Part shown: one piece after another, positions 15,076 through 64,000 of the stretch
Position numbering within the stretch: position 1 is the first letter of the stretch
Layout of the letters: every line of letters begins with the position of its first letter
Assembly: GCF_000165485.1 (NCBI RefSeq)
Contig: NC_014623.1
Span: 2,685,501 to 2,749,500 of the forward strand
Direction of reading: 5' to 3'
Origin: Stigmatella aurantiaca DW4/3-1
GTDB lineage: Bacteria; Myxococcota; Myxococcia; Myxococcales; Myxococcaceae
DNA length: 64,000 nt
Notes under the pieces: generated by a model
What the model saw: the letters and a program-made list of their open reading frames with translations, nothing else
What the model was told of the DNA's origin: nothing
Database searches by the model: none
Position numbers and translations under genes: made by a program

Positions 15076-15102
15076 TTGACACGCTGTCGCATGACTTAGA
15101 CG
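15076..15102 (+). promoter_or_regulatory. putative promoter of fibro-slime copy 1
   Basis: TTGACA at 15076 and TAGACG at 15097 are separated by 15 bases, slightly short for sigma-70. The block is identical at copy 2 apart from one base in the spacer. The ATG at 15111 comes eight bases after the -10 box and has no ribosome binding site, so the message may be leaderless. Confidence 0.45.
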
Positions 15103-15110
15103 ATGGCCGC

Positions 15111-16862
15111 ATGTCCGACGCACAGTGTTCTGCGAGCCTCTCGCGATTTACAGCCCTTGCGCTTCTTCTGGCCCTTGCGGCTTGTGGTGGCGGCAACCCG
15201 ACGGATCCCAAGCCGGATGGAGGGGGCCCTGGGGACACCCCCGACGCTTCGACGGATGGGGGCCGTGACGGAGGAGGGCCGGTGGACCCCCTCGATTGCG
15301 GCAACGGCATCCTCCAGGCAGGGGAGACCTGTGACGATGGCAACTTGAACAATGAGGACGGGTGCTCGTCGGCTTGTTCCGTCGAGTCGGGGTGGATCTG
15401 CCGGACGCCGGGCCAGCCGTGTGTGCTGAACGTCTGCGGAGACGGAGTGCGAGGCCCGAAGGAGACGTGCGACGACTTCAACACGCGTTCGGGGGATGGG
15501 TGCAGCGCCACGTGCGCGGTGGAGGCAGGGTGGAACTGCCCCAGCGGCGGCGGCAACTGCCAGGCGGCCAGGTGCGGCGACAACATCATCGCGGGCGACG
15601 AGGAGTGTGAGGACGGGAACGCCGCGGCGGGAGACGGGTGCAGCGCGACGTGCCGCCTGGAGGAAGGGTTCAAGTGCCCGGTGGCGGGCCAGGCGTGCTC
15701 GCGCACCACGTGCGGAGACAAGAAGGTGGAGGGGACCGAGCAGTGCGACGATGGCAACAACGACATGGGGGATGGGTGCTCGCCGCTGTGTAAGCGAGAG
15801 CCCTCGTGCACCAACGGCAACTGCACGGCCATCTGCGGTGACAACCTCATCCTGCCAGGCAGCGCTGAGGAGTGTGATGACGGCAACGTGCGCGACAACG
15901 ATGGGTGCTCGTCCACCTGCAAGCTGGAGCCTGGCTTCCAGTGCAAGCAGATCGAGAGCGAGCCCCCGCCCGAGGTGAAGATCCCGGTCGTCTACCGTGA
16001 CTTCATCGGCAACGATCAGACCCATGCCCAGAAGCATGCCGACTTTGAGAGCGTGACGGGCAGCGGTGAGCTCGGGATCGTCAAGAACCAGCTGGGCGCG
16101 AATCAGAAGCCGGACTATGCGAAGGACGGCCAGCAGAGCTCCAGCACCCACGGCAAGGCCAACTTCGACCAGTGGTACAGCGACTCGCCGAAGAGCAAGA
16201 CCATCGTCGAGACGCTGACCCTGGTTCAGGAAAAGGACGCCCAAGGCAATCCGACAGGCAACTACGTGTATTCCAACAGCAACTTCTTCCCGCTGGACAA
16301 CAAGGGCTGGGTGGCGACGGGAGACGAGCCTCGGCGCAACGGTAACCACAACTTCAGCTTCACCAGCGAGAACCGGTACTGGTTCGAGTACAAGGGGACG
16401 GAGAAGCTCTCGTTCACCGGCGACGATGATGTGTGGGTTTTCATCAACAAGAGGCTCGCGCTGGATCTCGGCGGGGTTCACTCGGAACAGAGCGGAACGG
16501 TGGATCTCACCCCGGCCTCGGCCGCCACGGCGTACAACCTGCGGAAGGGGGGCGTCTATGAGGCGGTCGTCTTCCAGGCGGAGCGTCACACCACCCAGTC
16601 CAACTACAAGCTCACCCTGGGCAACTTCACCACCCGGCGGACGGAGTGCACGAGCAGCTGCGGGGACGGGGTGGTGCAGCCGCCGGAAGAGTGTGACTCG
16701 GGAACGAATCCGGGAGGCTATGGCCAGTGCGCGCCTGGGTGCATCTTTGGACCGAGGTGCGGGGATGGAATCGTGCAGGAGGCGTTCGGAGAGAGCTGCG
16801 ACGACGGGAACGATGACAACGACGACCTGTGCAGCAACACCTGCAAGCCGCGCATCGGCTGA
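15111..16862 (+). CDS. fibro-slime domain lipoprotein with cysteine-rich repeats (copy 1)
   Basis: 583 residues. A lipoprotein signal (LALLLALAACGGG) is followed by a Pro/Asp/Gly-rich linker, then five ~40-residue units of the myxococcal disulfide type (CGNGILQAGETCDDGN, CGDGVRGPKETCDDFN and so on, each with a following DGCSxxC). Residues ~295-500 form a fibro-slime (PA14-like) domain with VYRDFIGNDQTH, FFPLDNKGWVATG, YWFEYKGTEKLSFTGDDDV and WVFINKRLALDLGGVH; two more cysteine units close the protein. The family is known from Dictyostelium pre-stalk factors and myxobacterial surface proteins and probably binds sugars in the extracellular matrix. A near-identical paralogue lies at 44656. A hairpin follows the stop. 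Confidence 0.92.
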   Translation: MSDAQCSASLSRFTALALLLALAACGGGNPTDPKPDGGGPGDTPDASTDGGRDGGGPVDPLDCGNGILQAGETCDDGNLNNEDGCSSACSVESGWICRTPGQPCVLNVCGDGVRGPKETCDDFNTRSGDGCSATCAVEAGWNCPSGGGNCQAARCGDNIIAGDEECEDGNAAAGDGCSATCRLEEGFKCPVAGQACSRTTCGDKKVEGTEQCDDGNNDMGDGCSPLCKREPSCTNGNCTAICGDNLILPGSAEECDDGNVRDNDGCSSTCKLEPGFQCKQIESEPPPEVKIPVVYRDFIGNDQTHAQKHADFESVTGSGELGIVKNQLGANQKPDYAKDGQQSSSTHGKANFDQWYSDSPKSKTIVETLTLVQEKDAQGNPTGNYVYSNSNFFPLDNKGWVATGDEPRRNGNHNFSFTSENRYWFEYKGTEKLSFTGDDDVWVFINKRLALDLGGVHSEQSGTVDLTPASAATAYNLRKGGVYEAVVFQAERHTTQSNYKLTLGNFTTRRTECTSSCGDGVVQPPEECDSGTNPGGYGQCAPGCIFGPRCGDGIVQEAFGESCDDGNDDNDDLCSNTCKPRIG

Positions 16863-27415: not shown

Positions 27416-28099
27416 ATGCAAGCAAGGGAGCCCGTGGAATCCCTTTTGCGATGGGTCCCCTCTGTGCCAAGTAGCTTCCCTGTGGAGTTCCCGTTCCGAT
27501 CTGCCAGCTCCCGATCCCGGCAGCGGGCTCGGGAGCCTGAGGCTTCTGGAGACCCCCGCCCCTCGGCCCCGGCGGCCGGCGATGCGGCGGAGTTTCAGCG
27601 GGTGCTCGCCAGCTGCGAGGCGAAGCTGGAGGAACGGGCCCGCTTCCTGTGCCGGGGCCGCAACCCCTCGGATGCCCGGGATCTCTTGCAGGACACCTAC
27701 GAGCGGGCCTTCCGCGCCTTCCATACGTACGACCGGAATGCGCCCCCGATGCCGTGGTTGGCGTCCATCCTCGTCCGGCGGTTTCTCGACATGTGCCGGC
27801 ACGACAAGCGCCACCCCGAGCAGGAGTTCACCGAGGCCTTGGACCAGGCGCGCGAGGAGGCCGAGCCCGCCGAGCCCTGGGGGGGCTACACGCTGGACGA
27901 TGTCTGGCGAGCCGTGGACCTGCTGCCCGAAGAGTTCAGGGACGTGGTGCGATTGAAGGACATGGAAGGGCTCTCGTACGCCCAGATCGGCAAGCGCCTG
28001 GGCATCGCGCCCATGACGGTGGGCACTCGGATCTTCCGGGCGCGCAAGAAGCTCAAGGAGATCCTCCTGAAGCAGGCGGAGAAGGGGGGCGGGCGATGA
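27416..28099 (+). CDS. ECF (sigma-70 family) RNA polymerase sigma factor
   Basis: 227 residues; ATG preceded by AGGAGG. The first ~60 residues are a Pro/Arg/Ser-rich extension not found in standard ECF factors. Region 2 is recognisable (ARDLLQDTYERAFRAFHTYD, WLASILVRRFLDMCR) and region 4 has the recognition helix-turn-helix LSYAQIGKRLGIAPMTVGTRIFRARKKLKE. There is no region 3, so it is a typical ECF factor that steers RNA polymerase to a small regulon. The stop overlaps the start of the next gene by ATGA. That gene begins with a zinc-finger anti-sigma domain, so the two form a sigma/anti-sigma pair made in fixed ratio. Confidence 0.93.
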   Translation: MQAREPVESLLRWVPSVPSSFPVEFPFRSASSRSRQRAREPEASGDPRPSAPAAGDAAEFQRVLASCEAKLEERARFLCRGRNPSDARDLLQDTYERAFRAFHTYDRNAPPMPWLASILVRRFLDMCRHDKRHPEQEFTEALDQAREEAEPAEPWGGYTLDDVWRAVDLLPEEFRDVVRLKDMEGLSYAQIGKRLGIAPMTVGTRIFRARKKLKEILLKQAEKGGGR

Positions 28100-31029
28100 C
28101 ACCTGCCTGCGAGCAATTGGCCGCCTTCGTGGACGGCGAGCTTTCCCCCCAGGAGGCGGCGGCCTTCCAGGAGCACCTGACGGGCTGTGAGGACTGTCAG
28201 GCGGGGCTGATGGACCAGGTTCAGGCCAGCGTCGCCGTGCACGCCGCCGGTGAGACGTCCCGGAAGGGCACCCGGACGCCCTTCCAGCCCATGTGGGCCC
28301 AGCGGCGGACCCGCGTCCTGGCCTACTCCGTGGGGGCCGTGGCCGTGCTGCTGCTGGGTGTCCTGGCGGTGCGTGGGGCAGGGGCTCCCCCGAAGGATCC
28401 GCTGCTGCTGGCCATGGCGGAGACGCGGCCGCTGGAAGGATGGCTCAGCTATCCGGGCGCGGATCGCCACCGTCCCCTGGCCACGATGCGCAGCGGTGCC
28501 GTGGGCACGGCGGCGCTGGATCACCGGATCCTGGCGGAGCTCGAGGATCGCGGGGACTTCCACGGGGTGGCGACGGCCTACCTGCGCGCCGGGGAGTTCG
28601 CGCGCGCCGAGCAGTTCCTGGACCGCGTGCCCTCCTCGCCCGAGGTGGACAGCGACCGCGCATTGGCGGCGCTGGGGCGGGGAGAGCACGAGCGGGCGCT
28701 GGGGCTGTTGGAGCACGCGCTGGCGGCGGCCCCCGAGAGCCTGCGGGTGCACTGGAACCGGGGCGTCGTGCTCCGGGCGATGTCCTTGGAGCTGGCCGCG
28801 TCGGCCGAGTTCCAGCAGGTCGCGGACAAGGCCGAGCCGGGCTGGAGCGAGGAGGCCCGGCAACTCGCGGGCGGGCTCCGCGCCACCGCGGAAGCGCGCC
28901 GGCAATCGTGGCAGTCCCTGACCGAGGCGGGGCAGGCGCTTGCCTTCCAGGGAACGCCCATGCCCGCGACGATGGTGCACCGCAACCCGGGAAGGGTGCG
29001 GCTGTACCTGTACCATGCGCTCCGGACCGCGGTGTCGCGGGAGCAGGTGCTCGCGCTGCTGCCGCTGGCCCAGTCGCTGGACCAGGTGTCCCGGACGCGC
29101 ACCGCGTCCAGTTCCGTGCAGAGCGTCGCCCAGGCGAACTTCACGAAGCGGGCGCCCCTGGCGGAGACGTACCGCGCGCTGTTGTCGGATCCAGGGGCGC
29201 TGCCACCTCCGGCGGCGGCGGCCTACCTGGAGCGGCTCCGGCGCTCGGGGGAGCAAGACCTGCTCCTGGGAGCCATCCTGCTGCTCGGGGCCGAGCGTCG
29301 TCACCTTGCCGAAGTGGAGCGGCTCGTTCAGGGGTCGGAGGACGTCCTCTGGTACCGGGGGCCCCTGGTGAAGGCCCAGGCCTCGGAGGAGATGGCGCGG
29401 GGCGCGGGCCTCGCGGCCGAGCAGCGGCTCCGGGACGCGGTGGAGGAGTACCGCCGGGCAGGCCTGGACTACCGGAGCATCTCGCTCCAGGAAGAGCTCA
29501 GCACCCTCTACAACAAACTGGATCGCCGCCGGGAGGCCATGCAGGTGGCGCGCGAGGCGCTGGAGGCCGCTCGCCGGACCGATGACTGGTTCCACGAGGA
29601 TCTGCTCGTCTTCGATCTGGTGACCAGTGCCAGGTTGAGCCATGAGCCCGCGCTGGCCCGGGCCTACCTGGACGAGTACCTGCGGCGCTCCCCGGAAGAC
29701 TGCGCGAGGCGCGCGGAGTACCACTATTTCCGGGCCCTGCTGGCCGTGGAGGCGCTGGATGCCACGGGGGCGCGGCGTGAGGTGGCCCAGGCTCAGACGT
29801 GCCCGGCGGCCCCGACGCTGTTCGAGATCGCCGTCTACGGTGACCTGCTCCGCTTTGGAGCGACCGAGGCCGAGCGGGCGCGGGCCGAGGACCGGATTCG
29901 CCTCCTCCGCCAGGACACCTCGCTTGAGCCGGACCAGCGCCTGCTGTTGGAGCACCTCGCGGGCCGCATCCTTATCGAGAGGGATCGCCCCGCGGGACAA
30001 CGGATCCTGCGGGAGGTCATCGCCGGGGCAGAGCCACTGAGGGCAACCCATATCGAGGCGCGCAAGGCCTGGTCACACAGCTACCAGGCCTTGGTCAGGG
30101 ACGCGGGCAAAGCCGGGGAGTTCGACGCGGCCATCGCCCTGCTCTCCGCTGAACTCGAGCGTGCCGCGCCGCCGGCGTGCCTGCTCGCCGTGGCCGGCCA
30201 GGACGAGCGGGTCCTCTTCGTCGCGCGAGGCCCCCAGGGGGACTTGCGGGGGGCGTACCTGGAGGGGCTCACCCGCTCCCTGCACGAGACGGTTCCCCCA
30301 GTCCCCGCCGCGCTTCGGGCCGTGCTCGAGGGCTGTGACACGGTGAAGGTGCTCGCGGAGCCCCTGCTTCAGGGACGGCCGGGCCTGCTGGGGCCGGACC
30401 AGGCTTGGAGCTACCTGGCCCCCAAGGTCCGGGGACCGCATGCCCCGGCTGCGGGGACCTCGTTCAAACACGTGGTGGTCTCGGCCGTGGAGCCGCCCGC
30501 CTCGCTGGGCCTGCCTCACTTGCTTCCCTGGAGCCGTCCGCCGGAGTTGGGCGAAGTCCACCTGCGGGGCCCCTCCGCGACCCCGGAGGCCGTGCTGGCC
30601 GAGCTCACCGATGCCACCCAGGTGGAGTTTCATGCGCATGGCCTGAGCCGCCTGGGCTTCTCCGATGCGTCGTTTCTGGCGCTTTCTCCGGGAGCCGATG
30701 GCCGCTACGCGCTGACGGCGGCGGACCTTCAGGGCCGCTCCCTGCGCGGGGCCCCGCTGGTGTTGCTGGCGGCGTGCGAGGCCAATGTGGGGGCGCTGCG
30801 CTACCACGATGTGTGGAGTTTGCCCGCGGCCTTCGTCCAGGCGGGCGCGAGCTCGGTGGTGGCCCCGTCTTCCCTGGTGCCGGATGCCGAAGTGGGCACT
30901 TTCTTCCAGGAACTGCTCGAGCGCGTCGATGGGGGGGCCACCGCTGCTCAGGCCTTGCGCGACACCCGGGTGGCCTGGCTCCAGAAGAAGCCTACGCGTT
31001 GGGTAGAGGACCTGGTGGTGTTCGAATAA
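28096..31029 (+). CDS. anti-sigma factor / membrane / TPR-like / CHAT protease fusion
   Basis: 977 residues. Residues 1-40 are a zf-HC2 anti-sigma domain with C5 and H27-x3-C31-x2-C34 (EHLTGCEDC). A single membrane helix follows at about 74-93 (VLAYSVGAVAVLLLGVLAV). Residues ~120-640 are helical hairpins with TPR character (DRALAALGRGEHERALGLLEHAL, EELSTLYNKLDRREAMQVAREALEAA). The last ~300 residues are a CHAT domain, a caspase-like cysteine protease fold: FHAHG with His848 before Gly, and LLAACEAN with Cys894, match the His/Cys pair. One membrane pass would put the TPR-CHAT part outside the cytoplasm. The gene overlaps the sigma factor by ATGA and a secreted-protein gene follows at 71 bases. 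The fusion suggests that CHAT activity or its ligand controls release of the sigma factor. A signalling target other than itself is equally possible. Confidence 0.9.
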   Translation: MTPACEQLAAFVDGELSPQEAAAFQEHLTGCEDCQAGLMDQVQASVAVHAAGETSRKGTRTPFQPMWAQRRTRVLAYSVGAVAVLLLGVLAVRGAGAPPKDPLLLAMAETRPLEGWLSYPGADRHRPLATMRSGAVGTAALDHRILAELEDRGDFHGVATAYLRAGEFARAEQFLDRVPSSPEVDSDRALAALGRGEHERALGLLEHALAAAPESLRVHWNRGVVLRAMSLELAASAEFQQVADKAEPGWSEEARQLAGGLRATAEARRQSWQSLTEAGQALAFQGTPMPATMVHRNPGRVRLYLYHALRTAVSREQVLALLPLAQSLDQVSRTRTASSSVQSVAQANFTKRAPLAETYRALLSDPGALPPPAAAAYLERLRRSGEQDLLLGAILLLGAERRHLAEVERLVQGSEDVLWYRGPLVKAQASEEMARGAGLAAEQRLRDAVEEYRRAGLDYRSISLQEELSTLYNKLDRRREAMQVAREALEAARRTDDWFHEDLLVFDLVTSARLSHEPALARAYLDEYLRRSPEDCARRAEYHYFRALLAVEALDATGARREVAQAQTCPAAPTLFEIAVYGDLLRFGATEAERARAEDRIRLLRQDTSLEPDQRLLLEHLAGRILIERDRPAGQRILREVIAGAEPLRATHIEARKAWSHSYQALVRDAGKAGEFDAAIALLSAELERAAPPACLLAVAGQDERVLFVARGPQGDLRGAYLEGLTRSLHETVPPVPAALRAVLEGCDTVKVLAEPLLQGRPGLLGPDQAWSYLAPKVRGPHAPAAGTSFKHVVVSAVEPPASLGLPHLLPWSRPPELGEVHLRGPSATPEAVLAELTDATQVEFHAHGLSRLGFSDASFLALSPGADGRYALTAADLQGRSLRGAPLVLLAACEANVGALRYHDVWSLPAAFVQAGASSVVAPSSLVPDAEVGTFFQELLERVDGGATAAQALRDTRVAWLQKKPTRWVEDLVVFE

Positions 31030-44501: not shown

Positions 44502-44620
44502 TTCGGCCTCCATTGGTCTGCGCTTATGTGCGAATGAGGAGCCTAAACTAGCACGGAGTGTGTCTTTTCCTCCAGGTTCTCCGAGGGGTCATCTGATGTA
44601 GGTGTAGGGGGAGGCTGCGA

Positions 44621-44647
44621 TTGACACGCTGTCGCATGGCTTAGACG
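44621..44647 (+). promoter_or_regulatory. putative promoter of fibro-slime copy 2
   Basis: TTGACA at 44621 and TAGACG at 44642, with the same spacing as at copy 1 and one base changed in the spacer. The ATG follows eight bases after the -10 box with no ribosome binding site. Confidence 0.45.
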
Positions 44648-44655
44648 ATGGCCGC

Positions 44656-46398
44656 ATGTCCGACGCACAGTGTCCAACGAGTCTTTCGCGATTCGCAGTC
44701 TTTTCTCTTCTTCTGGTCCTGACCGCCTGCGGTGGCGGCAACCCGACGGATCCCAAGCCGGATGGAGGGGGCCCTGGGGACACCCCCGACGCTTCGACGG
44801 ATGGGGGCCGTGACGGAGGAGGGCCGGTGGACCCCCTCGATTGCGGCAACGGCATCCTCCAGGCAGGGGAGACCTGTGACGATGGCAACTTGAGCAATGA
44901 GGACGGGTGCTCGTCGGCTTGTTCCGTCGAGTCCGGATGGATTTGCCGGACGCCGGGCCAGCCGTGTGTGCTGAACGTCTGCGGAGACGGAGTGCGAGGC
45001 CCGAAGGAGACGTGCGACGACTTCAACACGCGTTCGGGGGATGGGTGCAGCGCCACGTGCGCGGTGGAGGCAGGGTGGAACTGCCCCAGCGGCGGCGGCA
45101 ACTGCCAGGCGGCCAGGTGCGGTGACAACATCGTGGCAGGCGACGAGGAGTGTGAGGACGGGAACGCCGCGGCGGGAGACGGATGCAGCGCGACGTGCCG
45201 TTTGGAGGCGGGATTCAAGTGCCCGGTGGCGGGTCAGGCGTGCTCGCGCACCACGTGCGGAGACACGAAGGTGGAGGGGACCGAGCAGTGCGACGATGGC
45301 AACAACGACATGGGGGATGGGTGCTCCCCGCTGTGCACGCGGGAGCCCTCGTGCACCAACGGTACGTGCACGGCCATCTGCGGTGACAACCTCATTCTGC
45401 CTGGGAATACGACCGAAGAGTGTGATGACGGCAACCTGCGGGACAACGATGGGTGCTCGTCCACCTGCAAGCTGGAGCCTGGCTTCCAGTGCAAGCAGAT
45501 CGAGAGCGATCCGCCTGCCTTTGTCGAGATCCCGGTCGTCTACCGTGACTTCATCGGCAACGATCAGACCCATGCCCAGAAGCATGCCGACTTCGAGAAC
45601 AAGAACGGCTCGGAGAAGGGCCTGGTCAAAGCGGACCTGGTGAACAACAAGCCGGCCTATGCGAAGACGACGGGAGGAAGTACCACCACGAATGGCGAGG
45701 CGCTCTTCAACCAGTGGTACAAGGACTCGAGCCGGAGCAAGACCGAGGTCTCGACCTTGAGGCTGACCCGGCAGGGTACGAGCTCTTCCTATGTCTTCGA
45801 CAACCCGGACTTCTTCCCGCTCGATAACAAGGGCTGGGTGGCGACGGGTGAGGAGCCCCGGCGCAACAACAACCACAACTTCAGCTTCACCAGCGAGGCG
45901 CGCTACTGGTTCGAGTACAAGGGCACCGAGGTGCTTTCGTTCCGGGGTGACGATGACGTGTGGGTCTTCATCAACAAGAAGCTCGCCGTGGATCTCGGCG
46001 GTGTGCACGGGGCGGAGAATGGGAGCGTGGACCTCACGCTGCCCGCGGGCACCACCGTCAACACCAAGTACAGTATGAACAAAGGAGGCATCTACGAGGC
46101 GGTCGTCTTCCAGGCGGAGCGTCACACCACGGCGTCCTCGTACAAGCTCACGCTCGCCAACTTCACCACCCGGCGGACGGAGTGCACGAGTAGCTGCGGA
46201 GACGGAGTGGTGCAGCCGCCGGAAGAGTGTGACTCGGGAACGAATCCGGGAGGCTATGGCCAGTGCGCGCCTGGGTGCATCTTTGGACCGAGGTGCGGGG
46301 ATGGAATCGTGCAGGAGGCGTTCGGAGAGAGCTGCGACGACGGGAACGACGACAACGACGACCTGTGCAGCAACACCTGCAAGCCGCGCATCGGCTGA
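44656..46398 (+). CDS. fibro-slime domain lipoprotein with cysteine-rich repeats (copy 2)
   Basis: 580 residues with the same architecture as copy 1: lipoprotein signal (LVLTACGGG), five cysteine-rich units, a fibro-slime domain (VYRDFIGNDQTH, FFPLDNKGWVATG, YWFEYKGTEVLSFRGDDDV, KLAVDLGGVHGAENG), and two C-terminal units. Residues up to about 285 and the last 75 are almost identical to copy 1; residues ~310-385 (KNGSEKGLVKADLVNNKPAY and following) are clearly different. This suggests that the two proteins present related but distinct binding faces. A shared hairpin terminates it. Confidence 0.92.
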   Translation: MSDAQCPTSLSRFAVFSLLLVLTACGGGNPTDPKPDGGGPGDTPDASTDGGRDGGGPVDPLDCGNGILQAGETCDDGNLSNEDGCSSACSVESGWICRTPGQPCVLNVCGDGVRGPKETCDDFNTRSGDGCSATCAVEAGWNCPSGGGNCQAARCGDNIVAGDEECEDGNAAAGDGCSATCRLEAGFKCPVAGQACSRTTCGDTKVEGTEQCDDGNNDMGDGCSPLCTREPSCTNGTCTAICGDNLILPGNTTEECDDGNLRDNDGCSSTCKLEPGFQCKQIESDPPAFVEIPVVYRDFIGNDQTHAQKHADFENKNGSEKGLVKADLVNNKPAYAKTTGGSTTTNGEALFNQWYKDSSRSKTEVSTLRLTRQGTSSSYVFDNPDFFPLDNKGWVATGEEPRRNNNHNFSFTSEARYWFEYKGTEVLSFRGDDDVWVFINKKLAVDLGGVHGAENGSVDLTLPAGTTVNTKYSMNKGGIYEAVVFQAERHTTASSYKLTLANFTTRRTECTSSCGDGVVQPPEECDSGTNPGGYGQCAPGCIFGPRCGDGIVQEAFGESCDDGNDDNDDLCSNTCKPRIG

Positions 46399-46414
46399 GC
46401 GGTGTAGGAAGGGG

Positions 46415-46433
46415 GCCGCGCCCAGTGCGCGGC
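46415..46433 (+). terminator. hairpin after fibro-slime copy 2
   Basis: Identical stem GCCGCGC/GCGCGGC and loop CCAGT as after copy 1, 17 bases after the stop. Confidence 0.6.
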
Positions 46434-46496
46434 TCCCTGTCCCCTGGCTGGGCCTGTGTGGATGCTCAGTCCGGGGAGCGCTGCCTTCCCGCGCGC

Positions 46497-60567: not shown

Positions 60568-64000
<3,433 letters not shown>

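Follow-up and report, generated by a model that had tools for sequence, protein, structure and literature searches.

The homA and homB genes of Helicobacter pylori are paralogues with one segment in concerted evolution and a divergent middle, for which Ka/Ks values of 0.374 and 0.234 are given (PMC2795765). Long-lasting concerted evolution in prokaryotes has been described for 26 genes whose paralogues are closer to each other within a species than to their orthologues (PMC6053082). Here we describe a pair of fibro-slime genes, copy A and copy B, located in a stretch of 64,000 nucleotides (the window; 68.6% G+C) of the genome of Stigmatella aurantiaca DW4/3-1, a single contig of 10,260,756 bases. 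H. pylori homA/homB is the closest known parallel to these genes, and the A/B pair is itself a real and well-supported case of a known evolutionary pattern. Sequence comparisons give good support to recurrent gene conversion that homogenises the ends of the two genes while two old classes of centre persist.

In both proteins a predicted signal peptide with a lipobox-like cysteine (Cys25) is followed by a low-complexity linker and five Cys-rich repeats, after which come a PA14/fibro-slime domain (the centre) and C-terminal Cys-rich repeats (the C-end). We refer to the genome of the window as G000, to its nearest relatives as G001, G002 and G003, to two genomes of the same genus as G004 and G006, and to another genus as g19.

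Divergence along the two genes and across species

A repeat search shows copies A and B as direct repeats separated by about 29.5 kb, in blocks of 300 nt (94% identity), 195 nt (91%), 247 nt (82%) and 300 nt (92%). Outside the genes they share short stretches, upstream over about 40 nt at 97.5% identity and downstream over 56 nt at 92.9%, with no blastn match at E 1e-6 between their 1.5-kb flanks beyond those. In steps of 60 alignment columns, identity is 0.93-1.00 over most of the linker and repeats, 0.78-0.88 at positions 15781-15897 of copy A, 0.40-0.73 at positions 16018-16317 and 0.97-1.00 again at the 3' end. The copies therefore do differ in the centre of what the initial annotation had presumed to be a ligand-binding domain. 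The same annotation held that they share upstream DNA, N-terminus, C-terminus and terminator, and the copies do match from the core promoter through the 3' hairpin except in the centre and in the signal peptide. The signal peptides are divergent, with a proportion of synonymous differences (pS) of 0.40 over columns 1-27, so that the matching N-terminus begins only past the putative lipobox. The supposed terminator is a GC hairpin of -32 kcal/mol in both copies (-32.3 for B, from the fold of 46396-46450; z scores of -2.8 for B and -1.6 for A), and no T-run terminator was found at B.

Synonymous divergence (dS) between A and B is strongly uneven along the genes. With Nei-Gojobori counting, the halves of the centre reach 0.65 and 0.63, compared with 0.14 for the linker plus repeats and 0.05 for the C-end. 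Maximum likelihood (ML) codon estimates, in which codon bias is modelled, are 0.25 in the repeats (columns 84-300) and about 2.5 and 2.0 in the centre halves; several ML dS values were saturated (above 10) and were kept out of dating. The centre carries synonymous differences (31.1 of 71.2 and 34.6 of 80.8 sites in the two halves), non-synonymous changes and indels, so that divergence is neither uniform at synonymous sites nor limited, in the middle, to synonymous changes or to indels, the two outcomes that had been named as contrary to the original proposal. The likeness of the ends does not come from constraint on synonymous sites, since the same repeats have an ML dS of 1.7-1.9 between G000 and G002. 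The longest identical run between A and B, 179 nt, was reached in none of 2000 shuffles of the differing sites. Because the counts for control pairs of orthologues were small too (7, 23, 63, 79 and 251 of 2000; the paralogues of G001 and of G006 gave 139 each), we do not rely on run length as evidence for conversion, and the case rests on quartets and trees.

The same pair of genes is carried by G001, G002 and G003, with the copies 31-34 kb apart. Across G000-G003 the 1.5-kb flanks of each locus match those of the same locus, with the exception of the B 3' flank of G001, which has no match. The DNA between the loci is mostly collinear, 22.8, 17.2 and 17.1 kb of the 27.8-kb interval of the window aligning in G001, G002 and G003, respectively. 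Matching flanks together with a collinear interval indicate that the loci are orthologous in the four genomes, and hence that the pair is older than these species.

Quartet sites, counted between two genomes as grouping the copies either within each genome or by locus, distinguish the ends from the centre. In two parts of the repeats and in the C-end, within-genome sites outnumber by-locus sites by 46:1, 22:1 and 25:1 in G000/G002, by 50:1, 19:1 and 19:1 in G000/G003, by 42:3, 21:0 and 17:0 in G001/G002, and by 19:3, 8:4 and 2:1 in G002/G003. In the centre core it is the by-locus sites that prevail over the within-genome ones, by 24:2 in G000/G002 and 21:2 in G000/G003 (45583-45840 of copy B), by 33:2 in G002/G003 and by 22:4 in G004/G006. 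Sites in the signal peptide group by locus in G000/G001 (4:0) and G002/G003 (10:0), and within genomes in the other four comparisons (4:2, 4:3, 6:1 and 6:2).

Trees were built for the joined flanks and for the centre from 29 rows: 13 copies of the genus, 15 other loci of Myxococcaceae type and one Polyangium outgroup (left out were L034, L035 and L037, which are duplicates of G005 and G006 copies, L050, L051, L054-L057, the weaker hits L059-L113 and an interrupted third G001 copy). In the joined-flank tree the copies of one genome are sisters in all six paired genomes of the genus (bootstrap 94-100). In the centre tree the first copies of G004 and G006 group together (100/99), as do their second copies (99/93), and the eight centres of G000-G003 form one clade (100/99). 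Approximately unbiased (AU) tests reject a clade of the B-locus copies in the repeats (p 0.0003) and in the C-end (p 1e-6), and in the centre core they reject within-genome pairing for G000 (p 2e-5) and for G002 (p 8e-47). The conversion of flanks that had been proposed from the window alone is thus borne out, both by the uneven dS and by flanks that are sisters within each paired genome while the centre core goes by locus: at the level of the sequences, the ends evolve in concert and the divergence of the centre core is old.

An alternative origin of this divergence, the import of the G000 B centre into one copy by horizontal transfer from another lineage, would account for the position of this sequence in the tree of the whole centre, on a long branch that falls outside the remaining B copies. 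It is very unlikely in our judgement, being opposed by the by-locus quartets of the core (24:2 and 21:2), by the single clade of the eight G000-G003 centres and by the core (columns 346-440), where the B copies of G000, G002 and G003 lie on one side of a branch, although at 79/100 this is not strong.

We consider it likely that A and B are duplicate lectin genes whose ends have been overwritten by conversion, with the centre keeping two ancient classes under purifying selection. The duplicates, each coding for a predicted lipoprotein lectin of the outer surface, would have remained at fixed loci about 30 kb apart. Non-reciprocal recombination between them (gene conversion) would repeatedly overwrite the promoters, the Cys-rich repeats of the stalk, the repeats of the C-terminus and the 3' hairpins, these overwritten parts evolving in concert within each species. 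Most conversion tracts would end on reaching the dissimilar centres (300 nt at 40-73% identity), and the same barrier would separate the A and B classes, which perhaps are also preserved by different ligands of the two lectins. Recombination as the physical process, the heterology barrier, the surface location and the two ligands are what we infer from these patterns.

Selection on the centre and conversion in other lineages

The initial annotation had likened the divergent middle to the outcome of diversifying selection, that is, positive selection on a ligand-binding centre while the flanks were converted, as in kin-recognition receptors. Counting by the method of Nei and Gojobori (NG86), in which codon bias is ignored, gives some substance to this idea, with omega values of 1.08 (G002), 0.74 (G003) and 0.72 (G004) in the 5' half of the centre versus 0.10-0.26 in the linker and repeats of six pairs. 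Third codon positions of the centre are 92% G+C. Codon ML estimates of omega between A and B are 0.12 (G000), 0.21 (G002) and 0.14 (G003) in the 5' half of the centre, dS being saturated in G004 and G006, and 0.10, 0.32 and 0.18 in the centre core of the same three genomes. None of the 48 ML estimates (12 pairs by four segments, with pairwise code that was validated on simulated pairs) reaches 1, and a value of 1 is rejected for each of them, and so for every pair, at a nominal 5% level with no multiple-test correction (the lowest value of twice the log-likelihood difference, 2dlnL, being 4.7). Site models on the centre, with branch lengths fixed from M0, show no gain of M2a over M1a (2dlnL 0.95 for eight copies and 0.00 for 13 copies, w2 = 1.00).

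The hint of positive selection, an NG86 omega near 1 in one species, is thus gone once codon bias and site models are brought in, and we regard diversifying selection as quite improbable. What still speaks for it is the ML omega of G002, higher in the centre core (0.32) than in the repeats (0.12): the G002 centre core is freer to evolve than its repeats, yet the divergence is old, not fast. A and B differ at 42 of the 117 loop and helix residues and at 26 of the 99 strand residues (p 0.14), which does not demonstrate clustering in loops.

Within the family, 63 of 96 genomes have a relative at E 1e-60. Thirty of the 33 genomes that had at least two matches contributed 36 within-genome pairs for scoring (three of 60 loci, L140, L144 and L160, were dropped by an open reading frame filter, and the pairs did not include the third copy of G055 or of G064 or matches three and four of G001), a centre being called divergent when its amino-acid agreement was ten or more points below that of each end. 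Only five pairs have such a centre, all of them in the window's genus (G000, G002, G003, G004 and G006), and a rule by which the centre is always spared is thereby refuted.

A number of observations weigh against the explanation preferred here. In G001 it is the centre that has been converted (pS 0.04 and 0.05), with the A type at both loci, and the C-end that has not (0.32), the signal peptide also differing between the two copies (0.45). The centre is likewise homogenised in several genomes of g19. Within the genus, the B copies do not form a clade over columns 441-545 (a clade is not rejected either, p 0.20), where moreover the second G004 copy is not grouped with the second G006 copy; a tree restricted to the C-end does not pair the two G001 copies and leaves the four copies of G002 and G003 unresolved; and the C-end quartets of G002/G003 amount to just two sites against one. 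G006 is weakly homogenised (synonymous-codon identity of 0.71 in the repeats, with support of 72/62 for the pair in these repeats), and flank synteny in G004/G006 was detected at only one of the two loci.

The quartets of g19, where the correspondence of loci comes from match rank and sequence, not from synteny, group the 5' part of the centre within genomes and the first repeat by locus in G063/G068 (13:2 and 44:2, respectively) and in G053/G063 (13:0 and 30:1); in G053/G068 both the centre (27:5) and the first repeat (53:0) go by locus. In G056 the synonymous-codon identity of the centre is 93%, versus 75 and 78% in the ends. A partly reverse pattern was noted at eight g19 loci (L141, L142, L145, L146, L151, L152, L157 and L158, in G053, G056, G063 and G068), G056 being the clearest. 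With different parts spared in different lineages, conversion tracts appear to land in different parts of the gene from one lineage to the next.

These data lend themselves to a neutral patchwork, in which tracts fall anywhere, the G000 centre has merely not been overwritten lately and the classes have no functional meaning; this differs from the explanation of overwritten ends and ancient centre classes only in the two-ligand step and overlaps with it otherwise. The spared part does shift by lineage (the C-end and signal peptide in G001, the first repeat in G053/G063/G068, the centre in G000, G002, G003, G004 and G006), and a heterology barrier could preserve an old island without selection. 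The persistence of the same two centre-core classes in G000, G002 and G003, and of another pair in G004/G006, despite ends that were overwritten later, is harder to reconcile with it, and we view a neutral patchwork as possible but not favoured. Selection may also keep the centre classes apart, but the patchwork seen across lineages is compatible with its complete absence.

Additional copies were also observed. The third G001 copy lies elsewhere in that genome (L020; G001:C2:3329862-3331508), has one in-frame TAG in its centre and looks like a pseudogene. L132 (G038) and L138 (G040) are extra copies, each with one in-frame TGA within the match.

Predicted protein, promoter and gene neighbourhood

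The fibro-slime model TIGR02148 matches the two proteins with 91.2 and 87.1 bits (cut-off 45) and PA14 (PF07691) with 32.3 and 33 bits (cut-off 24), while the Cys-rich repeats score above cut-off with DUF4215 (Pfam) and TIGR02232 (NCBIfam) in six stretches per copy. The AlphaFold2 model of B has a mean predicted local distance difference test (pLDDT) score of 75, the centre blocks being mostly at 81-93 and two of them at 70 and 76, and contains a PA14 beta-sandwich at residues 289-504. Its best structural matches include 6qe7 (Z 10.0) and 6m8m, a PA14 sugar-binding domain (Z 9.6), with 122-140 residues aligned at a root-mean-square deviation of 3.2-3.3. Of nine Foldseek matches at E 0.001, seven are to PA14 domain entries and two to a GH31 xylosidase. 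An alignment-based sequence search of solved structures gave no match at E up to 1. A Z score near 8 is weak evidence when taken alone; here the Pfam and NCBIfam matches concur with the fold. One Cys-rich repeat of copy B (residues 106-153; 44971-45114) matches PAPP-A (7y5q, 864-913) with 40% identity over 48 residues and Z 7.0.

Cys25 follows a hydrophobic stretch and is nearly invariant in 35 copies, and a lipobox-like pattern, sought with a single regular expression, occurs in 16 of 25 other relatives. The proteins are predicted to be surface lipoprotein lectins carried on a Cys-rich stalk. The motif GDDD (residues 431-434) is invariant in the 35 copies, and a pair of aspartates binds Ca2+ in flocculins and, by modelling, in the myxobacterial receptor TraA (PMC3325183). 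By analogy, the centre may bind sugars in a Ca2+-dependent manner at this Asp-Asp motif.

The 31-nt promoter motif, allowing at most three mismatches, has two matches in the 10.26-Mb genome, ahead of A and B only, and its reversed control has none. No Shine-Dalgarno-like word occurs in the last 16 nt before the ATG of either copy. Among related copies, with start codons picked by the author, TTGAC lies 34-39 nt ahead of the ATG in 24 of 33, and 31 of the 33 lack a Shine-Dalgarno-like word; an xAxxAT-like hexamer was also seen about 17 nt past TTGAC in many of them (uncounted). This arrangement suggests that the A and B promoters give rise to leaderless mRNA, and a conserved leaderless promoter of the lipoprotein family is probable on these sequence patterns. 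In the literature on leaderless mRNA in Myxococcus xanthus, no title on myxobacterial promoters was among those listed. The positions of these elements are given in Table 1.

Table 1. Features of copies A and B, in coordinates of the window
Feature	Position	Strand	Basis
Copy A putative core promoter, layout as in B	15076-15104	+	
Copy A, 583 aa, paralogue of copy B	15111-16862	+	ORF; Pfam and NCBIfam domain matches
Copy A centre (A class) of PA14/fibro-slime domain	16035-16619	+	Quartets, trees
Copy B putative core promoter: TTGACA (44621-44626), 17-nt spacer, GACGAT (44644-44649), 6 nt, ATG	44621-44649	+	
Copy B, 580 aa, predicted surface lipoprotein, Cys-rich repeats flanking PA14/fibro-slime domain	44656-46398	+	Pfam, TIGR
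Copy B predicted signal peptide and putative lipobox (Cys25), unlike copy A	44656-44730	+	pS 0.40, columns 1-27
Copy B homogenised 5' block, comprising the low-complexity linker and the five Cys-rich repeats (by-eye count)	44731-45504	+	Quartets, ML dS
Copy B centre (B class) of PA14/fibro-slime domain, peak divergence 45583-45840	45583-46155	+	Quartets, AU test, fold
Copy B homogenised 3' block (last Cys-rich repeats)	46156-46395	+	pS 0.05, no amino-acid change, columns 561-627
Copy B 3' GC hairpin, common to A and B	46407-46442	+	RNA fold

Two near-identical copies with shared promoters could also be taken for a phase-variable or cassette-switching adhesin pair, and the initial annotation had drawn a parallel with phase-variable adhesins. 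We consider this extremely unlikely. No feature of phase variation was found: the G000 genome has no further full-length copy and, at E 0.001, no fibro-slime match beyond A and B, both of which are open and in direct orientation with the same promoter. Inverted repeats of at least 16 nt are missing from the B region, the A locus has two imperfect ones, and none of at least 60 nt occurs in the window; the tandem repeats of the B region are just short and weak, slippage tracts having been checked at B only.

Other genes of the window include one for an 831-aa protein with GH25 lysozyme and M23 peptidase domains and peptidoglycan-binding matches (35647-38139), perhaps a double cell-wall hydrolase used in predation to judge by these domains, and one for a protein of 1126 aa that combines a putative zinc-finger (zf-HC2) with a CHAT domain (27649-31026). 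A long in-register repeat array lies at 62677-63798, with start-to-start spacings that are often 18, 24 or 42 nt and 28 overlapping reference matches.

Comparison with known systems

Fibro-slime proteins of Fibrobacter succinogenes, which we take to carry the TIGR02148 model, bear the same domain family name as A and B and belong to a different organism. Antibodies to these proteins blocked 62% of cellulose adhesion in a study that is cited in PMC4668043. Searches of the literature on fibro-slime proteins, paralogue gene conversion and TraA brought up no report on the A/B genes among the titles listed.

The myxobacterial kin-recognition receptor TraA resembles A and B in having a PA14-type lectin-like domain and Cys-rich repeats at the cell surface (PMC3325183, PMC6372800). 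The domain order is reversed, however, five repeats preceding PA14 in A and B where TraA has an N-terminal PA14 followed by TIGR04201 repeats. The repeats are of another family, TIGR04201 not being among the NCBIfam matches of A and B at E 0.001, and A and B give no sign of a hypervariable domain. No NCBIfam match to the MYXO-CTERM tag was found at E 0.001, both proteins ending in the last Cys repeat (...CKPRIG), and no traB adjoins either gene, Pfam identifying the next gene downstream of A, on the same strand, as one for a chemoreceptor-type protein and that downstream of B, on the other strand, as one for a LysR regulator. Domain order, repeat family and the missing MYXO-CTERM tag and traB neighbour rule out that A and B are TraA. 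A 751-aa open reading frame with TIGR04201 repeats was observed elsewhere in G000 (L178, L179; G000:C1:1173089-1173733), and may on this basis be the TraA-type receptor of the genome.

A role in kin recognition, with which the initial annotation had drawn a parallel, is thus not supported, the hallmarks of TraA being absent, although on sequence alone such a function is conceivable. It is unlikely, if conceivable, that the A and B centres are functionally distinct self- or partner-recognition lectins on one shared, constantly re-standardised stalk and promoter, with selection purging conversions of the centre and favouring those of the ends. If this were true, both lectins would be kept equal in level and reach, and the loss of one type, as in G001, would alter the recognition behaviour of the species.

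As a mode of evolution, the A/B pair works similarly to GOT1p1/GOT1p2 of the copepod Tigriopus (PMC3728101), and the G001 centre looks like a transfer as seen there, although GOT1 is a cytoplasmic enzyme of a eukaryote. The 26 genes in long-lasting concerted evolution are mostly key pathway and complex genes, whereas in A and B a part of the gene escapes. With homA/homB, and with babA/babB, the pair shares the intragenomic conversion of part of two paralogues and a divergent middle with Ka/Ks below 1. The H. pylori genes differ in encoding unrelated outer-membrane proteins and in having a middle that is multi-allelic among strains and a divergent 5' segment; for A and B it is species that are compared, and homogenisation extends to both ends. 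A divergent middle between conserved ends is not evidence of diversifying selection. The A/B pair also draws attention to a myxobacterial family of probable surface lectins and offers a clean multi-species bacterial case in which gene conversion can make old divergence resemble hypervariability.

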